Position numbers and translations under genes: made by a program. From Pseudomonadota bacterium (GTDB lineage Bacteria > Pseudomonadota > Gammaproteobacteria > Burkholderiales > Rhodocyclaceae): a stretch of 64,000 bases of DNA. Below are positions 3,907 through 59,123 of this stretch, one piece after another. Every line of letters begins with the position of its first letter. Within the stretch, counting starts at the first letter, position 1. The DNA lies in contig JAFEDK010000005.1 in the NCBI GenBank assembly GCA_018241665.1, positions 1 to 64,000 on the forward strand. Direction: 5' to 3'. The notes beneath the pieces were generated by a model. It was not told where the DNA came from. It did not search any database and saw only the letters and a list, made by a program, of their open reading frames with translations.

Positions 3907-4075
3907 TGCGCTATTCCCTTTGTTGTTATTCAGGAGCCGTCTTCACGACCGCCCCGATTGTAGTCCTTTGGCATAAGCCGAGGCGATGCCCGCGACGCAA
4001 TAAAACAAACCCGCCCCGGCGGCTCCGGCACCACTACAATCGCGCCTTCCCGTTCCATCGCCGGATTCTGTCCCC

Positions 4076-5347
4076 ATGCCGTCCCCTACCCTTTCCGCCT
4101 CAGTCGCCATCATCGGCGGCGGCCCTGCCGGCCTGATGGCCGCGGAAGCCGCAGCCGCCGCCGGCCTGCAGGTGGATGTCTTCGACGCCATGCCCTCCGT
4201 CGGACGCAAGTTCCTGCTGGCTGGCCGCGGTGGGCTCAACATCACCCACGCCGAAGCATTTGCGGCCTTCGCCAGCCGCTATGGTTCGCGCCAGGTGCAG
4301 ATCGAGCCGATGATCCGGGCCTTCGGCCCGCAGGCCCTGCGGGAGTGGGTCGAAGGCCTGGGCGTGACGACCTTCGTCGGCAGCTCCGGGCGCGTCTTCC
4401 CCGCCGAGATGAAGGCCGCCCCCTTGCTGCGCGCCTGGCTGCAGCGCCTGCGCGAGGCCGGCGTACGCTTCCATGTGCGGCACCGGTGGACCGGCTGGGA
4501 TGCCGATGGGCACCTGCTATTCACCACCCCCGATGGCCTGCAGCGGCACCACGCGGACGCCTGTGTGCTGGCCCTCGGCGGCGGCAGTTGGGCCCGGCTG
4601 GGCTCGGATGGCGCCTGGATTCCCACCCTCAGCGAACTGGGCGTGGGCATCGCCCCCTTGCGTCCGGCCAACTGCGGCTTCATCGCCGGTTCGCCCCGCG
4701 CCGACGGTGCGGGCGGCTGGAGCGCCCATTTCCGCGAGCGCTTCGCCGGCCAGCCTCTCAAGTCGGTGAGCATCCGCGTGGAAGGCGACGACGTGCCACC
4801 GCGTAGCGGGGAGGCGATGATCACCGCCGACGGCATCGAGGGCAGCCTCATCTACGCACTGTCCGCGCGCATCCGCGCGCGTATCGAGCAGGACGGCGCG
4901 GCCACCCTGTCGATCGACCTGGCCCCTGGCCGCCCGCTGGAGCGGGTCGCCGCCGAGGTCGCCCATCCCCGCGGAGCCCGCTCCCTGGCCAGCCACCTGC
5001 AGAGCCGGGTCGGCATCGCCGGGGTGAAGATGGCCCTGCTCAGGGAATGCCTGAGCGCCGAGGTGCTGGAAGACCCGGCCCGCCTGGCCGCGGCGATCAA
5101 GGCCCTGCCCCTGCGCGTGGTCGCCCCGCGCCCACTGGACGAGGCGATCAGCAGCGCCGGCGGCGTGCGTTTCGAGGAAGTGGACGACCAGTTGATGCTG
5201 CTGCGGCGTCCCGGCCTGTTCTGCGCCGGAGAAATGCTCGACTGGGAGGCCCCGACCGGCGGCTACCTGCTCACCGCCTGCTTTGCCAGCGGGCGGATCG
5301 CCGGACTCGGCGCGGCATCCTGGCTGCAACAAAAGCCCTCCGCATAA
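4076..5347 (+). CDS. BaiN/HI0933-family FAD-dependent oxidoreductase
   Basis: It encodes 423 residues. The N-terminal dinucleotide-binding motif IIGGGPAGLMAAEAA (about 13-27) and the GRKFLLAGRGGLNITH string are characteristic of the HI0933/BaiN-like flavoprotein group. The C-terminal GLFCAGEMLDWEAPTGGYL string completes the FAD site. Family members are cytosolic flavoproteins; BaiN of gut clostridia reduces bile-acid enones, but most homologues, including Proteobacterial ones like this, have no defined substrate. The length is normal. The ATG follows CTGTCCCC with no strong ribosome site. It is transcribed alone, away from the cytochrome gene. Confidence 0.85.
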   Translation: MPSPTLSASVAIIGGGPAGLMAAEAAAAAGLQVDVFDAMPSVGRKFLLAGRGGLNITHAEAFAAFASRYGSRQVQIEPMIRAFGPQALREWVEGLGVTTFVGSSGRVFPAEMKAAPLLRAWLQRLREAGVRFHVRHRWTGWDADGHLLFTTPDGLQRHHADACVLALGGGSWARLGSDGAWIPTLSELGVGIAPLRPANCGFIAGSPRADGAGGWSAHFRERFAGQPLKSVSIRVEGDDVPPRSGEAMITADGIEGSLIYALSARIRARIEQDGAATLSIDLAPGRPLERVAAEVAHPRGARSLASHLQSRVGIAGVKMALLRECLSAEVLEDPARLAAAIKALPLRVVAPRPLDEAISSAGGVRFEEVDDQLMLLRRPGLFCAGEMLDWEAPTGGYLLTACFASGRIAGLGAASWLQQKPSA

Positions 5348-5371
5348 GCACATCCAGCACCAAAATATATC

Positions 5372-5399
5372 TAAAGTTATAGACACAACGAGCCGTCAG
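5372..5399 (+). promoter_or_regulatory. Possible sigma-28 (FliA) promoter of chemoreceptor gene
   Basis: TAAAGTTA at 5372-5379 and GCCGTCAG at 5392-5399 resemble the flagellar consensus TAAA-N15-GCCGATAA, with one extra spacer base. It lies 39 bases upstream of a methyl-accepting chemotaxis gene, in a conspicuously AT-rich patch. Chemoreceptor genes are classic FliA targets. Confidence 0.5.
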
Positions 5400-5437
5400 C
5401 ACTGGCTCCCCCTTCCCGCCGACACGGAGCAGACACC

Positions 5438-7054
5438 ATGAAACTGACGCAGCGCCTCATCCTCACCCTGGGCGTCGCCCTGTTCGCGCTGATCCTCGTC
5501 GGCGGCCTGGGAATCTGGCAGCTCCGCCAGGCCAGCGCCCGCTTCGACTACGTGCAGGCCAACACCTTCCCGAGCCTGCAGACCCTGCTCGAGGCACGCA
5601 GCAAGCTCACCGCGAGCCGCCTGGGCACCTACCAGCTGGCGCTGGCGGTGGACGCTGCCCACCGCAGCGAGATCGCGAAGGAGATCCACGAGGCGGACAG
5701 CCAGCTCGATCTCACGCTACAGAAGTACGAACGCGAACTGATCTCCGATGACACCGACAAGCAGTTGCTGGAGGCAGACAAACGGGCGATCGCCGATTAC
5801 CGCCAGATCCGCGAGGCCTATTTCGCCAAGGTCGACGCCAATGACCTGGAGGCCGTACGCAATTTCCTGCGCGTGAGCATGCGCGAGAAGGCATCGGCCG
5901 CCGGCAACGCCCTCAGCAAGCACGAGCAGTACAATTATCAACTCGCCGAACAACTCAACCGCGAGAATACGGAGCATTCGGCCACGGCCATGTGGACCAC
6001 CGCCGGCACCCTCATCGGCGCCTGCCTGCTCGTCGGAGTGCTCGCCCAACTGCTCATCGGCTCGCTGCGCACGAGCCTGGCCAGCATCCGCAATACCCTC
6101 ACCCACGTCAATGACAGCCAGGACTTCACGGTCCGCGCCCCCGTGCACCGCATGGACGAGATCGGCGAAACCGCCACGGCCTTCAACCAGTTGCTGTCCA
6201 AGCTGCAGGACAACTTCCGTAGCCTCACCGAAGGCGCCCGTTCGGTCGCCGATGCAAGCCGCGAAATGAACCGGGCCTCCGACCACGTCTCCGGCGCTGC
6301 CGGCTCCCAGAGCGAGTCGTCCTCCGCGATCGCCTCGACGGTCGAAGAAATGACGGTCAGCGTCAACCATGTGGGCGATCGCGCCCACGAAGCCCACACC
6401 CTGGCTGACCGTTCCGGCGACATGGCACGCACCGGCTCGAAGACAATCGACCGGACGATTTCCGACATCCGCAGCATCTCCGCCTCGGTGAGTGCCGCCG
6501 CGGCCTCCCTGCGGGAGCTGGGCGCCCAGGGGGAAAGAGTCGGATCGGTGGTGCAGGTCATCAAGGAAGTGGCTGACCAGACCAACCTGCTGGCCCTCAA
6601 TGCCGCCATCGAAGCCGCCCGTGCCGGCGAACAGGGCCGCGGCTTCGCCGTAGTGGCGGACGAAGTGCGCAAGCTGGCCGAACGCACCGCCAGTTCGACC
6701 CAGGAGATCGCCACCACGATCGAGGCCATGCGCCGTCACTCCGAGCAGGCTGCCGAGGAAATGGAGGCGGCCGAGCACCTGGTCACCCAGAGCGTCGCGC
6801 GTGCCGACGACACCGACAAGGCCATCAAGGAAATCGGCAGCGCCGCCAGCGGCACCGCCCACATGGTGTCGGAGATCTCCGACGCGATCCGCGAACAAGG
6901 CGCCGCCAGCAACAACATTGCGATCCAGGTCGAACGCATCGCCCAGATGGCCGAGGAAGCCGCCGCCACCGCCGAACAGTTGTCGGCCACCGCCCGCCGC
7001 CTCGATGACCAGGCCCAGCGCCAGATCGCCACGCTGCAGCTGTACAAGGTCTGA
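5438..7054 (+). CDS. Methyl-accepting chemotaxis protein (four-helix-bundle sensor)
   Basis: It encodes 538 residues: TM1 about 8-28, a helical periplasmic sensor of roughly 155 residues of the four-helix-bundle type, TM2 about 184-206, HAMP about 207-260, then the signalling coiled coil. The highly conserved hairpin tip is [20 protein letters not shown], followed by [18 protein letters not shown]. It transmits ligand binding to CheA/CheW at the inner membrane. The ATG has GGAGCAGACACC upstream. The ligand is not predictable. It is one of three receptors in this window with no che genes nearby, so it is an orphan receptor feeding a cluster elsewhere. Confidence 0.92.
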
Positions 7055-7137
7055 AAACGGGCGCTCGCCGCCCGGTGCCCATTCGCGGACAGCAGGAGTG
7101 CTAGACTTTCCGCTCTCCTACCGCGATGGAGGCGCCG

Positions 7138-7770
7138 ATGAACAGCAAACCCCTCGAATTCTGGTTCGAATTCGCCAGTTCATATTCCTACCTGAGCGTG
7201 ATGCGGATCGAGGCGCTGGCCAGGCAGGCCGGCGTCAAGCTGGCGTGGCGGCCCTTCCTGCTCGGGCCGGTATTCCTGTCCCTGGGCTGGAACGACTCGC
7301 CCTTCAACATCTATCCGCCCAAGGGCCGCTACATGTGGCGCGACCTGGCCCGCCTGTCGGCCCGCTACGGCCTGCCGTTCCAGGTGCCGTCGCGTTTCCC
7401 GCGCAATGGCCTGCTGGCAGCCAGGGTCGCGCTGACCGGCGCCAGCCAGCCGTGGATCGGCGCCTTCACCCGCGCCACGATGCAGGCCAACTTCGCCGAA
7501 GACCAGGACATTGCCGATCCGGCGGTGATCCGCGGCATCCTTGAAGCCCTGAAACTGCCCGCTGAAGCCATCCTCACCGAGGCAGAAAGCCCGGAGAACA
7601 AACTGGCCCTGCGCAGCCAGACCGAACAGGCAGCTGAGCGCGGCCTGTTCGGGGCCCCGAGCTTCATCACGCCGGATGGTGAACTGTTCTGGGGCAACGA
7701 CCGTCTGGAGGACGCACTGGCCTGGGCGGCTTCTCCCCCGGCCCGGCCCGACTCAGCGGCCGGGCGTTAG
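7138..7770 (+). CDS. DsbA-family protein, 2-hydroxychromene-2-carboxylate isomerase-like
   Basis: A 210-residue thioredoxin-fold protein (DsbA/kappa-GST type). The N-terminal FWFEFASSYSYLSVMR string matches the 2-hydroxychromene-2-carboxylate isomerase family, where the Ser in this loop replaces the CxxC active site and binds glutathione. The C-terminal RGLFGAPSFITPDGELFWG string carries the cis-Pro and GxPxF substrate loop. HCCA isomerases act in naphthalene catabolism, but genomic homologues outside such clusters, as here, have unknown substrates. I chose the ATG at 7138 over the one at 7126 because GGAGG at 7129-7133 is ideally spaced for it. It overlaps the next, convergent gene by 18 bases. 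Confidence 0.8.
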   Translation: MNSKPLEFWFEFASSYSYLSVMRIEALARQAGVKLAWRPFLLGPVFLSLGWNDSPFNIYPPKGRYMWRDLARLSARYGLPFQVPSRFPRNGLLAARVALTGASQPWIGAFTRATMQANFAEDQDIADPAVIRGILEALKLPAEAILTEAESPENKLALRSQTEQAAERGLFGAPSFITPDGELFWGNDRLEDALAWAASPPARPDSAAGR

Positions 7771-32886: not shown

Positions 32887-32902
32887 TGGCATGCCCCCTG
32901 CT
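32887..32902 (+). promoter_or_regulatory. Sigma-54-type promoter of aldehyde dehydrogenase
   Basis: TGGCAT-GCCCC-CTGC has the invariant GG and GC with 10-bp spacing and matches the -24/-12 consensus at most positions. Transcription would start near 32912, giving a leader of about 48 bases that includes GGAGGAG before the ATG at 32960. Confidence 0.6.
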
Positions 32903-32959
32903 GAAGAAGGTTCAGCGCTGCACGAAGCGTTTTCGAACCGACACCTGGAGGAGATACCC

Positions 32960-34480
32960 ATGCTGTACGCATTGCCCGGCACTGCCGACGCCAAAGTCCA
33001 ATACAAGTCCAAGTACGACAACTTCATCGGCGGCAAGTGGGTCGCTCCTGTCAAGGGCGAGTACTTCGACGTCATCACCCCGATCACCGGCAAGCCCTAC
33101 ACCCAGGCTGCCCGCTCCACCGCCGAGGACGTCGAGCTGGCCCTCGACGCCGCCCACGCCGTCGCCGACAAGTTCGGCCGCACCCCGGCCGCCGAGCGCG
33201 CCAACCTCCTGCTGAAGATCGCCGACCGCCTCGAAGCCAACCTGGAAAAGCTGGCCTACGCCGAGACCGTCGATAACGGCAAGCCGATCCGCGAAACCCT
33301 GAACGCCGACATCCCGCTGGCTGTCGACCACTTCCGCTACTTCGCCGGCTGCCTGCGTTCGCAGGAAGGCTCCCTGTCCGAGATCGACGAAAACACCGTC
33401 GCCTATCACTTCCATGAGCCCCTGGGCGTCGTCGGCCAGATCATCCCCTGGAACTTCCCGATCCTGATGGCCGCCTGGAAGCTGGCTCCCGCCATCGGCG
33501 CCGGCAACTGCGTGGTTCTGAAGCCCGCCGAATCCACCCCGATCTCCATCCTGGTGCTGGCCGAGCTGATCGCCGACCTGCTGCCCCCGGGCGTGCTGAA
33601 CATCGTCAACGGTTTTGGCCGCGAAGCCGGCATGCCGCTGGCCACCAGCAAGCGCATCGCCAAGATCGCCTTCACCGGCTCCACGGCCACCGGCCGCGTG
33701 ATCGCCCAGGCCGCAGCGACCAGCCTGATCCCTGCCACCCTGGAACTGGGCGGCAAGTCCCCCAACGTGTTCTTCGAAGACATCGCCGCCGCTGACGACG
33801 AATTCTTCGACAAGGCCGTGGAAGGCCTGGTGCTGTTCGCCTTCAACCAAGGCGAAGTGTGCACCTGCCCGTCCCGCGCCCTGATCCAGGAATCCATCTA
33901 CGACAAGTTCATCGAACGTGCCGTCGCCCGCGTCAAGCTGATCAAGCAAGGCAGCCCGCTGGATACCGACACCATGATCGGTGCCCAGGCTTCCGCCGAC
34001 CAGCTCAGCAAGATCAAGGCTTACCTGGAAATCGGCAAGGGCGAAGGCGCCCAGGTTCTGGTCGGTGGCGAACAAGCCCACCTCGACGGTGACCTGGCCG
34101 GCGGTTACTACGTCCAGCCGACCCTGTTCAAGGGCCACAACAAGATGCGCATCTTCCAGGAAGAGATCTTCGGACCGGTGCTGGCCGTGACCACCTTCAA
34201 GGACGAAGCCGAAGCCCTCGAGATCGCCAACGACACCGTCTATGGCCTCGGCGCCGGCGTGTGGAGCCGCGACGGCAGCCGCGCCTTCCGCATGGGCCGC
34301 AACATCAAGGCCGGCCGCGTATGGACCAACTGCTACCACGCCTACCCGGCCCACGCTGCCTTCGGCGGCTACAAGGAATCCGGTATCGGCCGTGAAACCC
34401 ACAAGGTCATGCTCGACCACTATCAGCAGACCAAGAACCTGCTGGTCAGCTACAGCCCGAACAAGCTGGGCTTCTTCTGA
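32960..34480 (+). CDS. NAD+-dependent aldehyde dehydrogenase (acetaldehyde type, ExaC/AcoD-like)
   Basis: It encodes 506 residues, the length of ExaC/AcoD acetaldehyde dehydrogenases. The motifs are [16 protein letters not shown] (coenzyme site), [21 protein letters not shown] with the general base Glu, and [12 protein letters not shown] with catalytic Cys301. The C-terminus has the [11 protein letters not shown] string. It oxidises aldehydes to acids, typically acetaldehyde during ethanol or acetoin use. The ATG at 32960 follows GGAGGAG. The gene uses preferred codons strongly, suggesting high expression, and is followed by a strong terminator and then DUF779, its usual neighbour. A sigma-54-type promoter lies upstream. 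Confidence 0.92.
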
Positions 34481-34511
34481 TCCAAGAGCTTCACGAGTAA
34501 GGCAAGGTGTT

Positions 34512-34542
34512 ACGGGGCGAGTCTCTCGCCCCGTTTTTTTTT
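34512..34542 (+). terminator. Strong Rho-independent terminator of aldehyde dehydrogenase
   Basis: The perfect 10-bp stem ACGGGGCGAG/CTCGCCCCGT with a TCT loop is followed by nine T residues. It separates the dehydrogenase from the DUF779 gene, which could be reached only by read-through or its own promoter. Confidence 0.95.
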
Positions 34543-34559
34543 GCTTTGCGGGATATTGT

Positions 34560-34587
34560 TGTGGGGGCGAATGCATTCGCCCCCACA
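34560..34587. repeat. REP-like element, copy 5: loopless 28-bp palindrome
   Basis: A perfect 28-bp palindrome whose halves are the outer 14 bases of the hairpin arms elsewhere in the window, except that the centre reads GAATGCATTC and no loop remains. It looks like a collapsed copy produced by deletion of the inner arms and centre. Confidence 0.85.
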
Positions 34588-34641
34588 TGGGAAACCCCTC
34601 GGGGAAACAAGCCCTCCACACTCCTGCCAGGAGAACCGAGC

Positions 34642-35010
34642 ATGACCGAACGCATCGTGGCCACCGCGGCCGCCAGTGAATTCATCGACGAACTGCGCGC
34701 CGAACACGGTCCGCTGATGTTCCTGCTGTCCGGCGGCTGCTGCGACGGCAGCGTGCCCAACTGCTACAAGGTCGGCGAGGTGCTCCCCGGCCAGACCATG
34801 CTCAAGCTGGGCACGGTCAATGGCGCGGATTTCTACCTGGGGCACCAGGAATTCCAGTACTACGAGAACAGCCAGCTGACCCTCGACGTAAAGCCGGGCA
34901 ACGGCGGCGACTTCTCCCTCGACTGCGGCCGCGGCAAGGCCTTCTTCACCCACTCCCGCCCGTTCACCGACGACGAGCTGCCCAGCGTGCGCCCGGTCGG
35001 CGCCGACTGA
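34642..35010 (+). CDS. DUF779 family protein
   Basis: A 122-residue protein. The string FLLSGGCCDGSVPNCY contains three cysteines and is the DUF779 signature, followed by DFYLGHQEFQYYENSQLTLDV. DUF779 genes very often sit directly behind acetaldehyde-type aldehyde dehydrogenases, as here, and an accessory or metal-binding role is suspected but unproven. AGGAG lies 10 bases before the ATG. It is separated from the dehydrogenase by a terminator and a palindromic repeat. Confidence 0.82.
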   Translation: MTERIVATAAASEFIDELRAEHGPLMFLLSGGCCDGSVPNCYKVGEVLPGQTMLKLGTVNGADFYLGHQEFQYYENSQLTLDVKPGNGGDFSLDCGRGKAFFTHSRPFTDDELPSVRPVGAD

Positions 35011-35020
35011 AGCCGGGACG

Positions 35021-35049
35021 AAAAAAAGCGCCCCCGCCAGCGGGAGCGC
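35021..35049 (-). terminator. Rho-independent terminator of the Sel1/ExbB/DUF2149 operon
   Basis: On the minus strand GCGCTCCCGCTGGCGGGGGC forms a GC-rich stem (one bulge), and its closing GC is followed by seven T residues, 14 bases after the DUF2149 stop. Confidence 0.8.
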
Positions 35050-35062
35050 GCAGATCAGCAGA

Positions 35063-35377
35063 TCATTCCGGAACGTAGACCAGCGAACCGTCCGGCATCC
35101 GGTAGGCAATGCCGGCCTTGACGCCCTGGCCGGCCGCCCCTGCGGCGCCATCGCCGCGGAAACGCTCGATCTTCTTCCCGTTCTTGACGACGATCTCCAT
35201 GTCCGGCGTGCCGGCATCGCGGATCACCGTCACCTGCCCGGCATCGAAGACATTCACCGGGCTGCGGGCCACCGCCAGCAGCAGCGCGGCGATCAGTACC
35301 AGGAAGACATCCACCAGGTTGACCACCGACAGCAGCGGATCGTCGTCCTCGCCGGCATCGTGCAGACGCCATTTCAT
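35063..35377 (-). CDS. DUF2149 protein, ExbD-like small membrane protein
   Basis: It encodes 104 residues. One N-terminal membrane helix contains SVVNLVDVFLVLIAALLL, in which an Asp inside the helix matches the proton-carrying Asp of ExbD/TolR/MotB. A small periplasmic domain follows (VTVIRDAGTPDMEIVVKNGK). DUF2149 proteins accompany MotA/TolQ/ExbB proteins in other bacteria, for example the hmu haem operon of Porphyromonas as I recall it. It overlaps the ExbB-like gene by 4 bases (ATGA), so the two are translationally coupled and probably form one proton channel. It is the last gene of a three-gene operon. Confidence 0.8.
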   Translation of the reverse strand: MKWRLHDAGEDDDPLLSVVNLVDVFLVLIAALLLAVARSPVNVFDAGQVTVIRDAGTPDMEIVVKNGKKIERFRGDGAAGAAGQGVKAGIAYRMPDGSLVYVPE

Positions 35378-35886
35378 CGCGCCACCTCCATGGCTGCCGG
35401 GCCGCCCGCCGGCAGACCCTTCTCGACGGCCAGCAGATCCGTCGCATACCAGCGCCGCCGCACGCTGTGTGCCCAGAAGGTGAGCGCCGCCGCGATGAGG
35501 GCCAGGATCACCGCCGAGAAAGCCACCATCAGGCTGTGCGACACATCGGCCAGCTGCCCGTCGCCGAGCGCCTTGAGGGCTGGCCCCATCGGGATCATCG
35601 TCGCCACCAGGCCGAGCATCGGCGCCACCCGCGTGGCAATGCGGGAGACTTCCAGGCGCTGGCTGGCCACCGCCTCCAGCTCGGCGATATCGAGCGCAGG
35701 ATTGGCGCGGTGGATTTCGACCAGCTCGAAGCCGGCATCCACGCCGAGCCGCCGCTGCCAGGCCTGCCACAGGAAGGCCCCGCAGGCGTGGAAGGCATAC
35801 AGGAACAGCGCCGCGATGGCGAGCAGCACCGGCGCCAGGAAGAGCTGGCTGGCGTCGTACATCAGGATTTCAAGATTGGCATTCAT
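35374..35886 (-). CDS. MotA/TolQ/ExbB-family proton channel subunit
   Basis: A 170-residue protein with three membrane segments: about 15-40 (LFLAPVLLAIAALFLYAFHA), about 88-105 (VAPMLGLVATMIPMGPALKA, the ExbB-type second helix with its Pro-flanked core), and about 118-145 (LMVAFSAVILALIAAALTFWA). ExbB/TolQ proteins form the pentameric ring of a proton channel whose partner supplies the Asp helix; that partner is the DUF2149 protein encoded next. It starts 5 bases after the Sel1 gene ends and overlaps DUF2149 by 4 bases. No TonB or TonB-dependent receptor gene is nearby. Confidence 0.82.
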   Translation of the reverse strand: MNANLEILMYDASQLFLAPVLLAIAALFLYAFHACGAFLWQAWQRRLGVDAGFELVEIHRANPALDIAELEAVASQRLEVSRIATRVAPMLGLVATMIPMGPALKALGDGQLADVSHSLMVAFSAVILALIAAALTFWAHSVRRRWYATDLLAVEKGLPAGGPAAMEVAR

Positions 35887-35890
35887 CGTT

Positions 35891-36820
35891 TCAGGCCCGG
35901 CAAAGAGAAAGTGAGCGACGCGCCATCGGCGCACGCAGGGATTGGCGCAAGGCGCCCGACAGGAGCAGCACACCGAACAGTGCGGCCAGGCCGCCGGATG
36001 AGGTTCCTGTGGGCTGCGAAAGCGGTTCGGCGAGCTTCGCCAGATGCTGCCCGGCGACGGGAGCGGATACGGGAGCGTCGGCGGGCGGAGGCGGGCTGAC
36101 GGGCGGCGTGCTCGGCGCCGCATCCAGCAGGCGCCGTGCGCTGGCCCCACGCACCTCCTGGGCATGCCGAGCGGCAATCTTTGGTTGCGCGGCCTCGAAC
36201 AATTCCCCCGGCAAAGGCGGCGTTGGGCCCGTCTGCACTGGCGGCGGCGGTGTGCCCGTGCCCCGCGCCTGTCCGTCCCGGTCGCCCACGTGATAGCCGG
36301 TGCGCAAGAACTCGATGGCATCCGGATTACCGTCGCGCGCCGCAGCCTCGAACCACTTGCGCGCCTCCACCTCGTCCTTCGGCACCCCGCGTCCCTCCTG
36401 CAGGGCGCTTGCGTAATGGAGCTTGCCCAGGGTCGCATACGGGGAATCGCCGGCCAGCGCCGCCCGGTGCATCAGCTCGGCGGCGGCCGGCAGATCCGGC
36501 GGCACGCCGCCCGCCCCGTCCTGCAGCATCAGGGCCTTCCAGATCATCGCGCCGATGTAGCCGGCGGCGATGCACTTGTCGAAGACCTTGCGGGCGTTGT
36601 CGTGGTCGCCGCACTTTTCCAGCAGATAGCCCTTGCTGCACACCATCAGGCTGGCCGGCTGATCGACGATGTATTCGAGGGTCTGGTCGCCGACCACGTG
36701 GGCGAGGTCGGTGGGCTCGCCGGTCTGCGGTACCGGCCCACCGCAGAAGCGGTTGTCCGCCGCCACTGCGGCGGTGGTGAAAAACAGGGCCAGCATGGCG
36801 GCCCCGGTCGATCTACGCAT
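35891..36820 (-). CDS. Exported Sel1-repeat protein with Pro-rich linker and C-terminal membrane segment
   Basis: It encodes 309 residues: signal peptide 1-21 (cleavage near AAVAA-D), a helical Sel1/TPR-like region about 65-175 (with GVPPDLPAAAELMHRAALAG and GRGVPKDEVEARKWFEAAAR), Pro-rich stretches about 190-205 and 237-255, then a hydrophobic helix about 276-291 (GGLAALFGVLLLSGAL) followed by a strongly basic tail. Four Cys lie in the N-terminal half. The order is TonB reversed: periplasmic domain, Pro-rich arm, membrane anchor. The tail could instead be a GlyGly-CTERM-like sorting signal. It is first in the operon with the ExbB-like and DUF2149 genes. An ATG at 36826 is an equally possible start. 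Confidence 0.75.
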   Translation of the reverse strand: MRRSTGAAMLALFFTTAAVAADNRFCGGPVPQTGEPTDLAHVVGDQTLEYIVDQPASLMVCSKGYLLEKCGDHDNARKVFDKCIAAGYIGAMIWKALMLQDGAGGVPPDLPAAAELMHRAALAGDSPYATLGKLHYASALQEGRGVPKDEVEARKWFEAAARDGNPDAIEFLRTGYHVGDRDGQARGTGTPPPPVQTGPTPPLPGELFEAAQPKIAARHAQEVRGASARRLLDAAPSTPPVSPPPPADAPVSAPVAGQHLAKLAEPLSQPTGTSSGGLAALFGVLLLSGALRQSLRAPMARRSLSLCRA

Positions 36821-37528: not shown

Positions 37529-38164
37529 TCAGATCAGCCCAAGGCGCAGCGCCAGCCGGGTCAGCTCGATGTCGCTGCGCACGCCGAGCTTGCTCTTGAT
37601 CTGGTAGTGGCAGTTCTGCACCGTTTTCGAGGAGATCGACAAACGCTCGCCGATCTCCTCGGCACTGCAACCGTCGAGCAGCAGGCGCAGGATCTCGAAC
37701 TCCCGCGGTGCCAGCTCGGCGAGCGGCTCCCGCGGGCGCTCGACGAGGGCCAGGGCCAGCTCCGGCGCAATGTCGGGGCTGATCACCTGGCGCCGCTCGG
37801 CCACCTTGTAAACCGCTTCCACCAGCACCGTCGGCGGGCTGCTCTTGGTCACGTAGCCAAGGGCCCCGGCACGCAGCGCCTGGGTCGCGAACAGCGGCTC
37901 CCGGTGCATCGTGAATACCAGGATGCGCACGCGGTCATCACGCTGCACGAGGCGGCGGATCAGCTCCACGCCGCCCATGTCGGGCAGCCCGAGGTCGAGA
38001 ACCAGCACATCGGGCTCCAGCAACCGGAATTGCTCCAGCGCATCGCGGGCCGTGCCGGCCTCGCCGACGATGCGCAGGTCCGGCCGCATCTCCAGCAGAC
38101 GGCGGTAGCCTTCGCGCACGATGGCGTGGTCGTCCACCAGCAGCAGGCGGGTGATGTCAGACAT
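37529..38164 (-). CDS. NarL/UhpA-family response regulator
   Basis: It encodes 211 residues. The receiver domain (about 1-120) has the phospho-acceptor Asp57 in LVLDLGLPDMGG, the acidic pair DD at 11-12, the Thr of VFTMHRE and Lys115-equivalent in YVTKSSPP. The C-terminal LuxR-type helix-turn-helix (about 145-205) contains LAPREFEILRLLLDGCSAEE and ISSKTVQNCHYQIKSKLG. It binds DNA on phosphorylation by the adjacent kinase. The start at 38164 overlaps the kinase stop by 8 bases, so the two are translationally coupled. Its probable targets are the matching motifs at 36901 and 39649. Confidence 0.9.
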   Translation of the reverse strand: MSDITRLLLVDDHAIVREGYRRLLEMRPDLRIVGEAGTARDALEQFRLLEPDVLVLDLGLPDMGGVELIRRLVQRDDRVRILVFTMHREPLFATQALRAGALGYVTKSSPPTVLVEAVYKVAERRQVISPDIAPELALALVERPREPLAELAPREFEILRLLLDGCSAEEIGERLSISSKTVQNCHYQIKSKLGVRSDIELTRLALRLGLI

Positions 38165-39569
38165 GGACCGCGCCCTCCTCGTGGCAGGCATCGGGCGGGA
38201 AGATCGCGCTCACCCGCATGCCGCGCGGCGTGACCGGCTCCAGCGCGAAACGCCCACCGAGCGCCTCGACCCGCTCGTGCATCCCCAGCACGCCAAGGCC
38301 GCTGCCGGCCGTATCGCCCTTGCGTGGTGCGCCGTCGTCCTCCACCCACAGGCGGCAGCCGGCCGCGTCCCGCTGCAGGCGCACCGCTACCGTTTGCGGC
38401 TCGCCGTGGCGCAAGGCATTGGTGAGGCTCTCCTGCACGATGCGATACAGGCTGACCATCAGGCCGTCCGGCAGGTCGTCCACCGCACCGTCGATGTCCA
38501 GCGTGAAAGCGCAATCCGGGCGCCGCCGGCGCCCCCCCGCCAGCAACTGCTCCAGCGCTGCCTGCAGGCCGAACTCCTCCAGTCCGATGGGTCGCAGCTG
38601 GTGCAGGATGCCCTGCAGGCTCTCCATCATGTGGCCGGTAACCGACGCGATGGCCTGGGCGGCCGGCAGCAGATCCGGGCGGGAGTTCTCCACCGCCGCG
38701 CTGACATAGGCGGCCTCGGCGCCGATGGAGGCCAGGCACTGGCCGAACTCGTCATGGAGTTCCCGCGCCAGGTGGCGGCGCTCCTCTTCCCGCACCGTCA
38801 GCAGGCGCAGGGCCAGCTGGCGCTGGCCGGCCAGGGTCTGCTGCAGGCGCGCCACCAGGTGGTCGAAGCCGCTGGCGATGAGGCGCAGCTCCACCAGCCG
38901 CGGGCGCGGCATGCGCGCCGCCAGGTCGCCGGCCTGCAGGCGCCCGAGCACCCCCAGGATCTCCTGCGCCGGCCCCAGCGCACGGCGCACCGGCAGATAG
39001 ACCAGCAGGTTCAGCACCAGGATGCCGACGGTCATGCCCAGCACGGTGCGGATCTGGTCCCACACCGCGTTGGCCTCACTGTCCAGGTTGGGGGTGACAA
39101 CGAACTCGCCAACCTTCACGCCCGGATACTGGCCGATCACGCCGCGGAACGCGATGTCCGGCCCGGTCAAGGCCGCCAGCAGGCCGCGCAGCAGGGTCGG
39201 CGCCTCCGCCCCATCGCCGAAGCAGCGCTGCACCACCGGCCGCTTGTAGATGTCCTCCACCGCCACGCAGATACCCAGCAGCGGCCCGATGCCGTCGAGG
39301 GACGACAGCTCCAGGCCGTCCAGGCTGCGCCGGAACACGTCGCGCGGCTGCGCCGCCTCGCTGGCCAGCAGGCGCTCCACCGCGCCACCGGCCCGTTCGA
39401 TATGGGCCCGCATGCGTGCCTCGGCCCGCTGCAGCACCACCGCGCTGGCCACGAGCCCGATCACCACCGCGAACAGGCTGACCCGCAGCAACAGCGTGCG
39501 CTTCAGATCCACGCTGTGTTCATGCCCCTCGTCCATCGCCACGGCCGGACGGCTCATGTGCGTCTCCAT
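38157..39569 (-). CDS. NarX/UhpB-type sensor histidine kinase
   Basis: It encodes 470 residues: TM1 about 25-46, a periplasmic sensor of about 125 residues (with a Cys pair at 101 and 116), TM2 about 176-194, HAMP, then the HisKA_3 dimerisation helix with phospho-His in [15 protein letters not shown] (about 272) and a HATPase domain with LTNALRHGE and [18 protein letters not shown]. The sensor domain matches no named ligand domain I know. Operon with the response regulator. Motif copy B lies 99 bp upstream of its start, suggesting autoregulation. Confidence 0.88.
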
Positions 39570-58800: not shown

Positions 58801-58949
58801 CGCTGCGACCTTTCCGCTCCAGTCATATATCCGGGTGCCAATTCTATCCCCATCCCATAGTTTCATCCCATTGCCGTTTGAAGGCGGAATATCCGCGGCG
58901 GCATACGATCAGGGCGGATGGACAGGCGCTGCCGCCTCGCGTAGCATCG

Positions 58950-59060
58950 CGGCCGTCATTGGGGAGTAGCCTCCTTTCTCTCGAAAGGGCCTGCGTCAAC
59001 ATACTTGGCTTCGCGGCCATGGCGCAGGCGGTCCCGAACTTGGCAAGACCTTTGACCACC
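58950..59060 (+). promoter_or_regulatory. yybP-ykoY manganese riboswitch
   Basis: The conserved core strings are present in order: GGGGAGTAGCC (58961), GCGTCAACATACTTGG (58993-59008) and GGCAAGACCTTTGACC (59042-59057), with intervening stems. These form the two stacked helices that bind two Mg2+/Mn2+ ions in the yybP-ykoY family. It lies directly upstream of a TMEM165/GDT1-type exporter gene, a class commonly under this riboswitch, so Mn2+ should switch the gene on. Confidence 0.92.
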
Positions 59061-59093
59061 CGCCTCCGGATTTGGCCGGAGAGGCGCGTGGTC
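59054..59093 (+). promoter_or_regulatory. Expression-platform hairpin of the manganese riboswitch
   Basis: GACCAC/GTGGTC and CGCC/GGCG plus TCCGG/CCGGA form a long stem with one bulge. Its 5' edge overlaps the aptamer's GACC, so aptamer and hairpin should be mutually exclusive. It has no U-run; control may be by Rho or by altering ribosome access to AAGGG at 59112-59116. Confidence 0.6.
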
Positions 59094-59123
59094 ATTCGTC
59101 TGTATCCGGCCAAGGGATTTCAC

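Follow-up and report, generated by a model that had tools for sequence, protein, structure and literature searches.

A conserved Sel1, ExbB-like and DUF2149 gene triad in Rhodocyclaceae: a candidate proton motor with an exchanged, C-terminally anchored partner

What would a gene pair of the ExbB-like and DUF2149 kind drive when the gene next to it encodes a Sel1-repeat protein? This question is raised by a stretch of 64,000 nucleotides from a member of the Rhodocyclaceae (assembly GCA_018241665.1, contig JAFEDK010000005.1, positions 1-64,000), which we call the window in its full length. At 35063-36820, all on the minus strand, a single tight row of three genes encodes a Sel1-repeat protein of 309 amino acids (35891..36820), an ExbB-like three-helix protein of 170 amino acids (35374..35886) and a DUF2149 protein of 104 amino acids (35063..35377). 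Four bases separate the Sel1 and exbB-like genes, while the latter overlaps the DUF2149 gene by 4 bases. All three proteins score over the curated Pfam cut-offs, with E-values of 2e-12 for Sel1 (PF08238), 8.3e-8 for MotA_ExbB (32.5 bits for a cut-off of 22.9) and 1.8e-23 for DUF2149 (PF09919; 83.1 bits for a cut-off of 27.1), so that coordinates and Pfam confirm the tightly packed row described in an earlier note on this DNA, hereafter the original prediction. Our main reading, to which we give a probability of roughly 60%, is that the pair is a small proton-driven motor and that the Sel1 protein is its dedicated client, held by a docking tail whose body is exchangeable. Gene conservation, the family-level similarity of the tails, the position of the pairs in a tree and their neighbourhoods are its basis, and from these we infer motor activity, the physical docking of the Sel1 tail on the pair, and function.

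The triad is a genuine module and is conserved. In 395 genomes of the family, a profile made from seven Sel1 proteins gave 66 matches at E<=1e-10 and 37 at E<=1e-60, and 40 regions were fetched, 36 of them strong (all except that of the window) and four of them weaker (L179-L182, E ~1e-31 to 1e-34). Both partners are adjacent in 33 of the 36 strong relatives, in agreement with the original expectation that the Sel1 gene would be kept beside the pair. Among the misses, L155 and L178 are contig ends, and in the genomes G774 and G652 a pair lies where a different contig stops (L260 and L259); the last miss, L163 in genome G456, has a tail-less Sel1 frame of 194 amino acids at 6640-7224 with another frame directly behind it. 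The four weaker relatives have neither a tail nor the pair alongside. Adding the window and L051, a locus from a different family in the same order, brings the triads to 35, spread over 8 genera within the family searched and a single genus beyond it. Where Sel1 matches strongly, DUF2149 occurs in 36 of 37 genomes, G456 being the exception, against 110 of the 395 overall (lists compared by hand); the cases in which tail and pair are missing together are few and non-independent. As a side observation, the tail-less orthologue of L163, in a genome without a DUF2149 match, forms a natural negative control. A second tail-less Sel1-like protein, of 285-286 amino acids, follows DUF2149 in five triads (L170, 5145-6005; L171, 8521-9381; L172, 8485-9345; L174, 8521-9381; L177, 5148-6005), and related tail-less frames stand in neighbouring pairs at L179-L181, where the motor genes are absent. 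A 286-residue neighbour seemingly present in 31 of the 35 triads was dropped, since the query holds Sel1-like repeats and matches the Sel1 gene itself.

Which other partners accompany this pair? We classified the pair loci with our own profiles in a sample that is not a census, made of 31 of the 32 DUF2149 matches of the order (all except the window's own), 13 new matches of the phylum and, from the family with its 146 matches, those linked to Sel1 plus 27 more. The partner is CobN/HmuS-like at 60 loci, Sel1 at 35, and neither at 6, of which four (L254, L258, L259 and L260) end at a contig edge and two (L243 and L244) have no recognisable partner. Three further loci (L058, L059 and L061) were not counted as pairs because their DUF2149 match lies below the family cut-off and no ExbB-like match is present; L059 and L061 hold a canonical ExbD-like sequence at the weak DUF2149 match. 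We also observed a short exbB frame beside ExbB/ExbD/TonB-like frames at L244 and a DUF2149 fragment without exbB at L237; L237, L243 and L244 are apparently decaying or partnerless remains. CobN has no match in the whole window genome (99.95% complete), and a TonB-receptor profile built from three receptors has none in the 25 kb around the window triad, so the original statement that no such gene is nearby stood for both. The receptor profile matches at 38 of the 60 CobN loci compared with 3 of the 35 triads.

The relationship between the two types of loci was approached with a tree of the joined ExbB-like and DUF2149 domains from 95 loci, rooted at the midpoint, in which all 35 pairs of the Sel1 type group in a single clade nested within the 60 of the CobN type. 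The partner body was thus probably exchanged once, with the tail retained, in a pair copy able to coexist with the CobN type. A pair lineage with no CobN and usually no receptor match beside it, but with a differently built partner that has a similar tail, suggests that the tail-bearing protein is the direct partner of the motor.

The similarity of the tails is therefore central to the reading of the pair as a motor with an exchangeable client. The CobN proteins beside the pair mostly end with a linker, a V-x-G-x-x-L motif, a helix and a basic end, and all 20 such tails aligned carry the motif Gly, while the conservation of a helix Gly reaches 90%. The window's Sel1 protein carries the motif V-A-G-Q-H-L-A-K-L at residues 255-263 (36032..36058, minus strand), which includes a CobN-tail-like G-x-x-L, then a C-terminal helix at residues 275-296 (35933..35998, minus strand) with an invariant Gly289, followed by a basic end that extends to 35894. 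Outside the Sel1 domain, the motif leucine (residue L260) and the helix Gly289 are the sole invariant positions among 33 aligned Sel1 proteins, and the motif Gly (G257) is kept at at least 90%. A hidden Markov model (HMM) built from the 20 CobN tails, with no Sel1 protein included, matched six of seven Sel1 proteins at E<0.003 (the seventh, L065, at 4.2), four of the six being near-identical relatives; in this small search the best shuffle reached E 0.54 and ExbB-like frames 0.002-0.003. Against 8903 open reading frames (ORFs), the matches of the same model at E<=0.01 comprised 20 of the 47 Sel1 ORFs (17 of 43 once duplicates are removed), 28 further CobN proteins, the 20 tails used to build it, the first helix of 11 ExbB-like proteins and one truncated Sel1 tail. 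When profiles were compared with each other (hhalign), the Sel1 tails (32 rows, omitting truncated or tail-less sequences, duplicates and some near-duplicates) and the CobN tails (20 rows) aligned with a probability of 96.3 and an E-value of 1.7e-9, and none of 200 column shuffles reached the observed score, whether the linker, the helix with its end, three blocks or the whole tail was shuffled. G-x-x-[LM] precedes the last helix in 81 of 94 clients, a count that has no chance control (L051 was trimmed by its last 20-35 residues for all tail counts), and 10 of the 13 clients without it belong to one divergent CobN clade. At the family level, the Sel1 and CobN tails are thus alike in sequence, sharing the G-x-x-L motif, a linker, a helix with a conserved Gly and a basic end. 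Terminal membrane helices had already been predicted in HmuS, according to the accessible parts of two papers (PMC12583661, PMC13227078). In the window's own genus, L152 and L153 have the motif Gly replaced by Ala.

Could this tail be a membrane anchor or a processed sorting signal and nothing more, the three genes being co-expressed in one pathway in which the Sel1 protein draws no energy from the pair? A Pro-rich linker, a helix and a basic end make up the general layout of sorting signals, which the tail resembles; a basic end behind a helix is no specific mark in profile searches, and the window protein even has Gly-Gly at the start of its helix. The relatives, however, lose this Gly-Gly and keep G-x-x-L and one helix Gly; the tail is like that of CobN beside the same pair, and it is absent in the few cases that lack the pair. 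No sorting-signal family of NCBIfam matches the Sel1 protein up to E 1, a search whose filters can miss short motifs, so that the original prediction's proviso about a cleaved sorting signal is answered at the level of known families and left standing for short motifs that escape them. We consider this alternative doubtful.

In the reading of a proton-driven motor with a docked client, the ExbB-like and DUF2149 proteins would be a motor pair of the ExbBD/TolQR/MotAB kind. In the second transmembrane helix (TM2) of the ExbB-like protein, T96 (codon 35599-35601) is identical in all 40 aligned sequences, of 99 usable, and we take it, in our own reading of the alignment, as the likely equivalent of T148 of E. 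coli ExbB; a Thr in TM3 is not clearly kept, the nearest position being Ser in 30 of 40 and Thr in 3 of 40. The DUF2149 protein has one helix and a small beta domain, and D23 (codon 35309-35311) and N20 of its N-x-x-D helix are invariant in 45 aligned sequences, of 101 usable, so that the Asp that had been placed in an ExbD-like position proved fully conserved. An invariant TM2 Thr together with an invariant DUF2149 Asp is what is expected for proton coupling. The DUF2149 protein matches only DUF2149 in Pfam up to E 1, and not the ExbD family itself (PF02472). Five canonical ExbD matches were found in the window genome, meaning that the pair is not its sole motor of such a kind. None of the three proteins matches a PADLOC model up to E 1, those of Zorya-like defence motors included. 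From what is known of the family, the pair would form a 5:2 motor on which the tail docks. Two side observations concern these proteins. The first helix of the ExbB-like protein (35749-35835, minus strand) resembles the helix and basic end of the client tail, which may be chance composition or mimicry, and some DUF2149 proteins of the window's genus (L151-L154) lack a segment of the beta domain. The client motif is absent for 7 of 12 short DUF2149 forms and for 6 of 82 others, a link that we do not use: L151, L154, L245 and L246 are short yet keep the motif, the match of L057 probably arose by chance, and the single divergent CobN clade accounts for 10 of the 13 losses.

How is the Sel1 protein placed with respect to the membrane? 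AlphaFold2 predicts a confident Sel1 domain, a low-confidence linker and the helix at 275-296, with a pLDDT over the C-terminal helix region of 63, 88 and 73 in ten-residue blocks, and the N-terminal helix at residues 2-20 reads as a putative signal peptide. The best Foldseek matches of the body are Sel1 structures, including HcpB (1klx, E 1.9e-4), and its cysteines C61, C70 and C83 are invariant in 33 aligned proteins, C26 being kept at at least 90%. The closest named relative is that of Zoogloea sp. LCSB751 (93%), metagenome-assembled genomes reaching 94%, and the chelatase body (PF02514) has no match in this protein. Across 35 Sel1 proteins, the median net charge is +3 after the C-terminal helix and 0 before it, and it is higher after the helix in 31 of the 35. 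A C-terminal helix with basic residues behind it points to an anchor oriented opposite to that of TonB, as originally claimed, and leads one to expect the Sel1 body in the periplasm.

The comparison with TonB does not go further. The Sel1 domain is separated from the helix by 28-36 residues in 12 of the 35 triads and by 73-108 in the other 23, so the Pro-rich arm is not conserved, and by our estimate the shorter arms would not reach the outer membrane. SHLS, described in the available part of one paper as the docking motif of TonB and TolA (PMC12905483), was sought as S-x3-H-x6-L-x3-S in the last 90 residues of 43 Sel1 sequences (four duplicates and three truncated or tail-less ones included) and occurs in none, in either order, the scan covering this C-terminal part. 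With SHLS absent and such short arms, the triad as a rule does not reach to the outer membrane in the manner of TonB, and the "TonB-like" label of the original prediction is not supported. What stays of the transducer place proposed there is that the Sel1 protein occupies the CobN/HmuS slot with a similar tail.

These results also bear on the proposal, made for the CobN operons, that the pair energises an outer-membrane receptor, the Sel1 protein then being a substitute for TonB. A member of the pair has been suggested to help energise a receptor for both PA1922-PA1925 and hmu, as far as the accessible sections of the reports go (PMC4542158, PMC8456098, PMC12583661). On the other side, receptor matches are near just 3 of the 35 triads, and the short arms and the lack of SHLS (0 of 43) speak against a TonB substitute. 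DUF2149 was moreover found in a control search in Methanosarcina acetivorans, an archaeon without an outer membrane. PA1924 and PA1925 are presumably this same pair. We regard the energising of a receptor as a very improbable role for the triad.

Several known systems help to situate the triad as a motor with an exchanged client. In the hmu operon, ExbB-family and DUF2149 proteins are annotated (PMC10434189, in the part available), and the HmuS-HmuU-HmuV system of Bacteroidota resembles the triad in placing them beside a large CobN-like partner, with predicted terminal membrane helices according to the accessible text of PMC13227078 and PMC12583661. PA1922-PA1925 of Pseudomonas aeruginosa combines a CobN-like gene with motor-like genes, its likeness to the triad being one of description. 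In contrast to both, the partner in the window is a 309-residue Sel1 protein in a genome without CobN, and the triad usually has no receptor match and often has a two-component system. The CobN partners in the genomes fetched share the type of tail of the Sel1 protein, the HmuS tail of Bacteroidota lying outside this comparison. TonB-ExbB-ExbD and TolA-TolQ-TolR share with the triad an ExbB-family TM2 Thr, a one-helix Asp protein and a third, anchored protein with a periplasmic body, whereas the anchor of the triad is C-terminal and not N-terminal, SHLS is missing, a long arm is dispensable and DUF2149 takes the place of ExbD. A further comparison is with the motor-driven vWA proteins, proposed as new force transducers, in which TolQ/TolR-like motor genes accompany an unrelated periplasmic body and a TPR gene is often adjacent (PMC12204202); they are described as carrying a TonB-like SHLS helix or a pore helix with Asp, whereas the triad has a C-terminal helix and a Sel1 body. 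HcpB and HcpC of Helicobacter have the fold of the Sel1 body and conserved cysteines, and they are free secreted proteins that are not known to have a motor pair, unlike the Sel1 protein of the triad.

How might such a system work? The Sel1 protein would be exported, folded in the periplasm and anchored through its C-terminal docking tail. Since the CobN/HmuS-like partners of the pair end in a similar tail, this tail would be a common plug, ahead of which the body was swapped, probably in a single event. As protons pass the Asp of DUF2149 and the Thr of the ExbB-like protein, they would set either the tail or the adjacent DUF2149 in motion, and work would be done on the Sel1 body close to the membrane surface and not at the outer membrane. 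The triad would then be a proton motor of a known sort with an exchanged, C-terminally anchored partner, and would add this topology to the motor literature searched; the tail shared by Sel1 and CobN proteins is new here. In that literature, from which subscription sources were mostly absent, we found no description of the triad or of the shared tail; no paper with both Sel1 and DUF2149 came up in the text portions searched, nor did CobN, chelatase or Sel1 in a word search of the accessible parts of recent work on 5:2 motors and force transducers. For the motor-like genes of the CobN operons, the sections available either name the energising of receptors as their role or leave it undecided (PMC12583661, PMC8456098, PMC4542158, PMC13227078). 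A bolder extension, against which the odds lie and which we offer tentatively, is that the tail is a portable plug for unrelated periplasmic bodies on the ExbB-DUF2149 motor: with the CobN/HmuS body, the motor would replace the ATPase subunits of cytoplasmic chelatases and power metal removal in the periplasm, and with the Sel1 body it would power the maturation, assembly or control of an alcohol dehydrogenase dependent on pyrroloquinoline quinone (PQQ). Were this true, the published suggestion of receptor energising would be wrong for the whole family. The triad may also point to a source of energy for the chemistry of metals and quinoproteins in the periplasm.

The neighbourhoods give an indication of the process that this client might serve. 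The stretches compared differ in length (7-15 kb for triads, 25 kb for the window, 6-12 kb for other pairs), which slightly favours the triads. Homologues of a histidine kinase are found at 30 of the 35 triads and of a response regulator at 28 (26 at a stricter 1e-70), and neither occurs at any of the 66 other pair loci. In the window they are a LuxR/NarL-type response regulator (37529..38191) and a HisKA_3 sensor histidine kinase (38157..39569), both on the minus strand, while at L157 and L158 kinase and regulator come directly after DUF2149. This association would fit a signalling device, in which the pair lets the Sel1 protein report the proton motive force or the state of the periplasm to the adjacent kinase. 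Yet the regulators may simply control the operon, no kinase homologue was found at L159, L160, L162, L167 and L168 (the stretches being short for all of these save L162), and the weak matches at L161 and L164-L166 may stem from kinases that have no relation to this one, so that we hold a signalling role to be quite unlikely.

For the motor with a docked client, a link to alcohol oxidation comes from other neighbours. A PQQ alcohol dehydrogenase lies near 5 of the 35 triads (L051 and L158-L161, three genera) and near none of the 66 others; the enzyme of L161 passes the NCBIfam methanol/ethanol model (756.6 bits for a cut-off of 480.05) and that of L158 stays below it (419.9). In the window, the acetaldehyde dehydrogenase ExaC (32891..34480, plus strand; NCBIfam NF050026, 939.6 bits for a cut-off of 900) is followed by a DUF779 protein (34507..35010, plus strand), which adjoins triads within the window's genus. 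ExaC is near 11 and DUF779 near 12 of the 35 triads, all in this genus, the sole case among the 66 others, L260, being a triad truncated where its contig stops. At the genome scale, PQQ dehydrogenase genes (E<=1e-40) are present in 159 of the 395 genomes, comprising all 37 with a strong Sel1 match and 122 of the 358 others (hand count). Taken together, the kinase and regulator, PQQ and ExaC neighbourhoods make periplasmic PQQ-dependent alcohol oxidation and its two-component control our best guess for the setting, at a little short of even odds. A motif scan for calcium against lanthanide in the PQQ enzymes was uninformative. At L156, a NosR-like membrane protein (3946-6066; NCBIfam NF046105, 534.1 bits, under the cut-off of 1000) stands between the DUF2149 and kinase genes.

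A number of observations weigh against the reading of the triad as a motor with a docked client and against its setting. The Sel1 clade has a weak support of 0.41, its union with the CobN locus L047 reaching 0.95, and Sel1-type and CobN-type pairs occur together in genomes of the genus (G484, G598 and G661 for example; the two types of G484 are L143 and L256), which speaks of coexistence, the CobN type not being simply replaced. The CobN-tail model misses 27 of the 47 Sel1 ORFs at E 0.01, 7 of them tail-less or truncated and 20 with a tail, and the scores that it gives to the first helix of ExbB-like proteins are comparable with those of several Sel1 tails; the helix half of the model by itself thus lacks specificity. 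In its own genome, the window tail has an E-value of 1.63 and ranks 13 of 14, outscored by other membrane helices, including that of its ExbB-like neighbour, and is not singled out; as this single-genome search gives no discrimination, we discarded it as evidence, and the tail argument stands on the family-level profiles. The structure predicted for DUF2149 is of low quality (pLDDT 69), and Foldseek gives nothing similar at E<=0.001, a comparison of folds that is not firm with so weak a model, and this leaves the N-x-x-D helix as the sole likeness of DUF2149 to ExbD. As to the setting, 30 of the 35 triads have no PQQ enzyme within the stretch examined, ExaC is beside triads only in the window's genus, and the Fisher test of the PQQ association (p 1.4e-16) ignores relatedness.

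Two minor features of the window remain. The original prediction gave the three genes a shared terminator, and a terminator-like hairpin followed by seven T does lie just 3' of DUF2149 (35028..35049, minus strand); with 2 such sites observed for 0.9 expected in shuffles, it is weak evidence when taken alone. Far from the triad, at 58949-59120 on the plus strand, lies a yybP-ykoY manganese riboswitch (RF00080, 104.1 bits).

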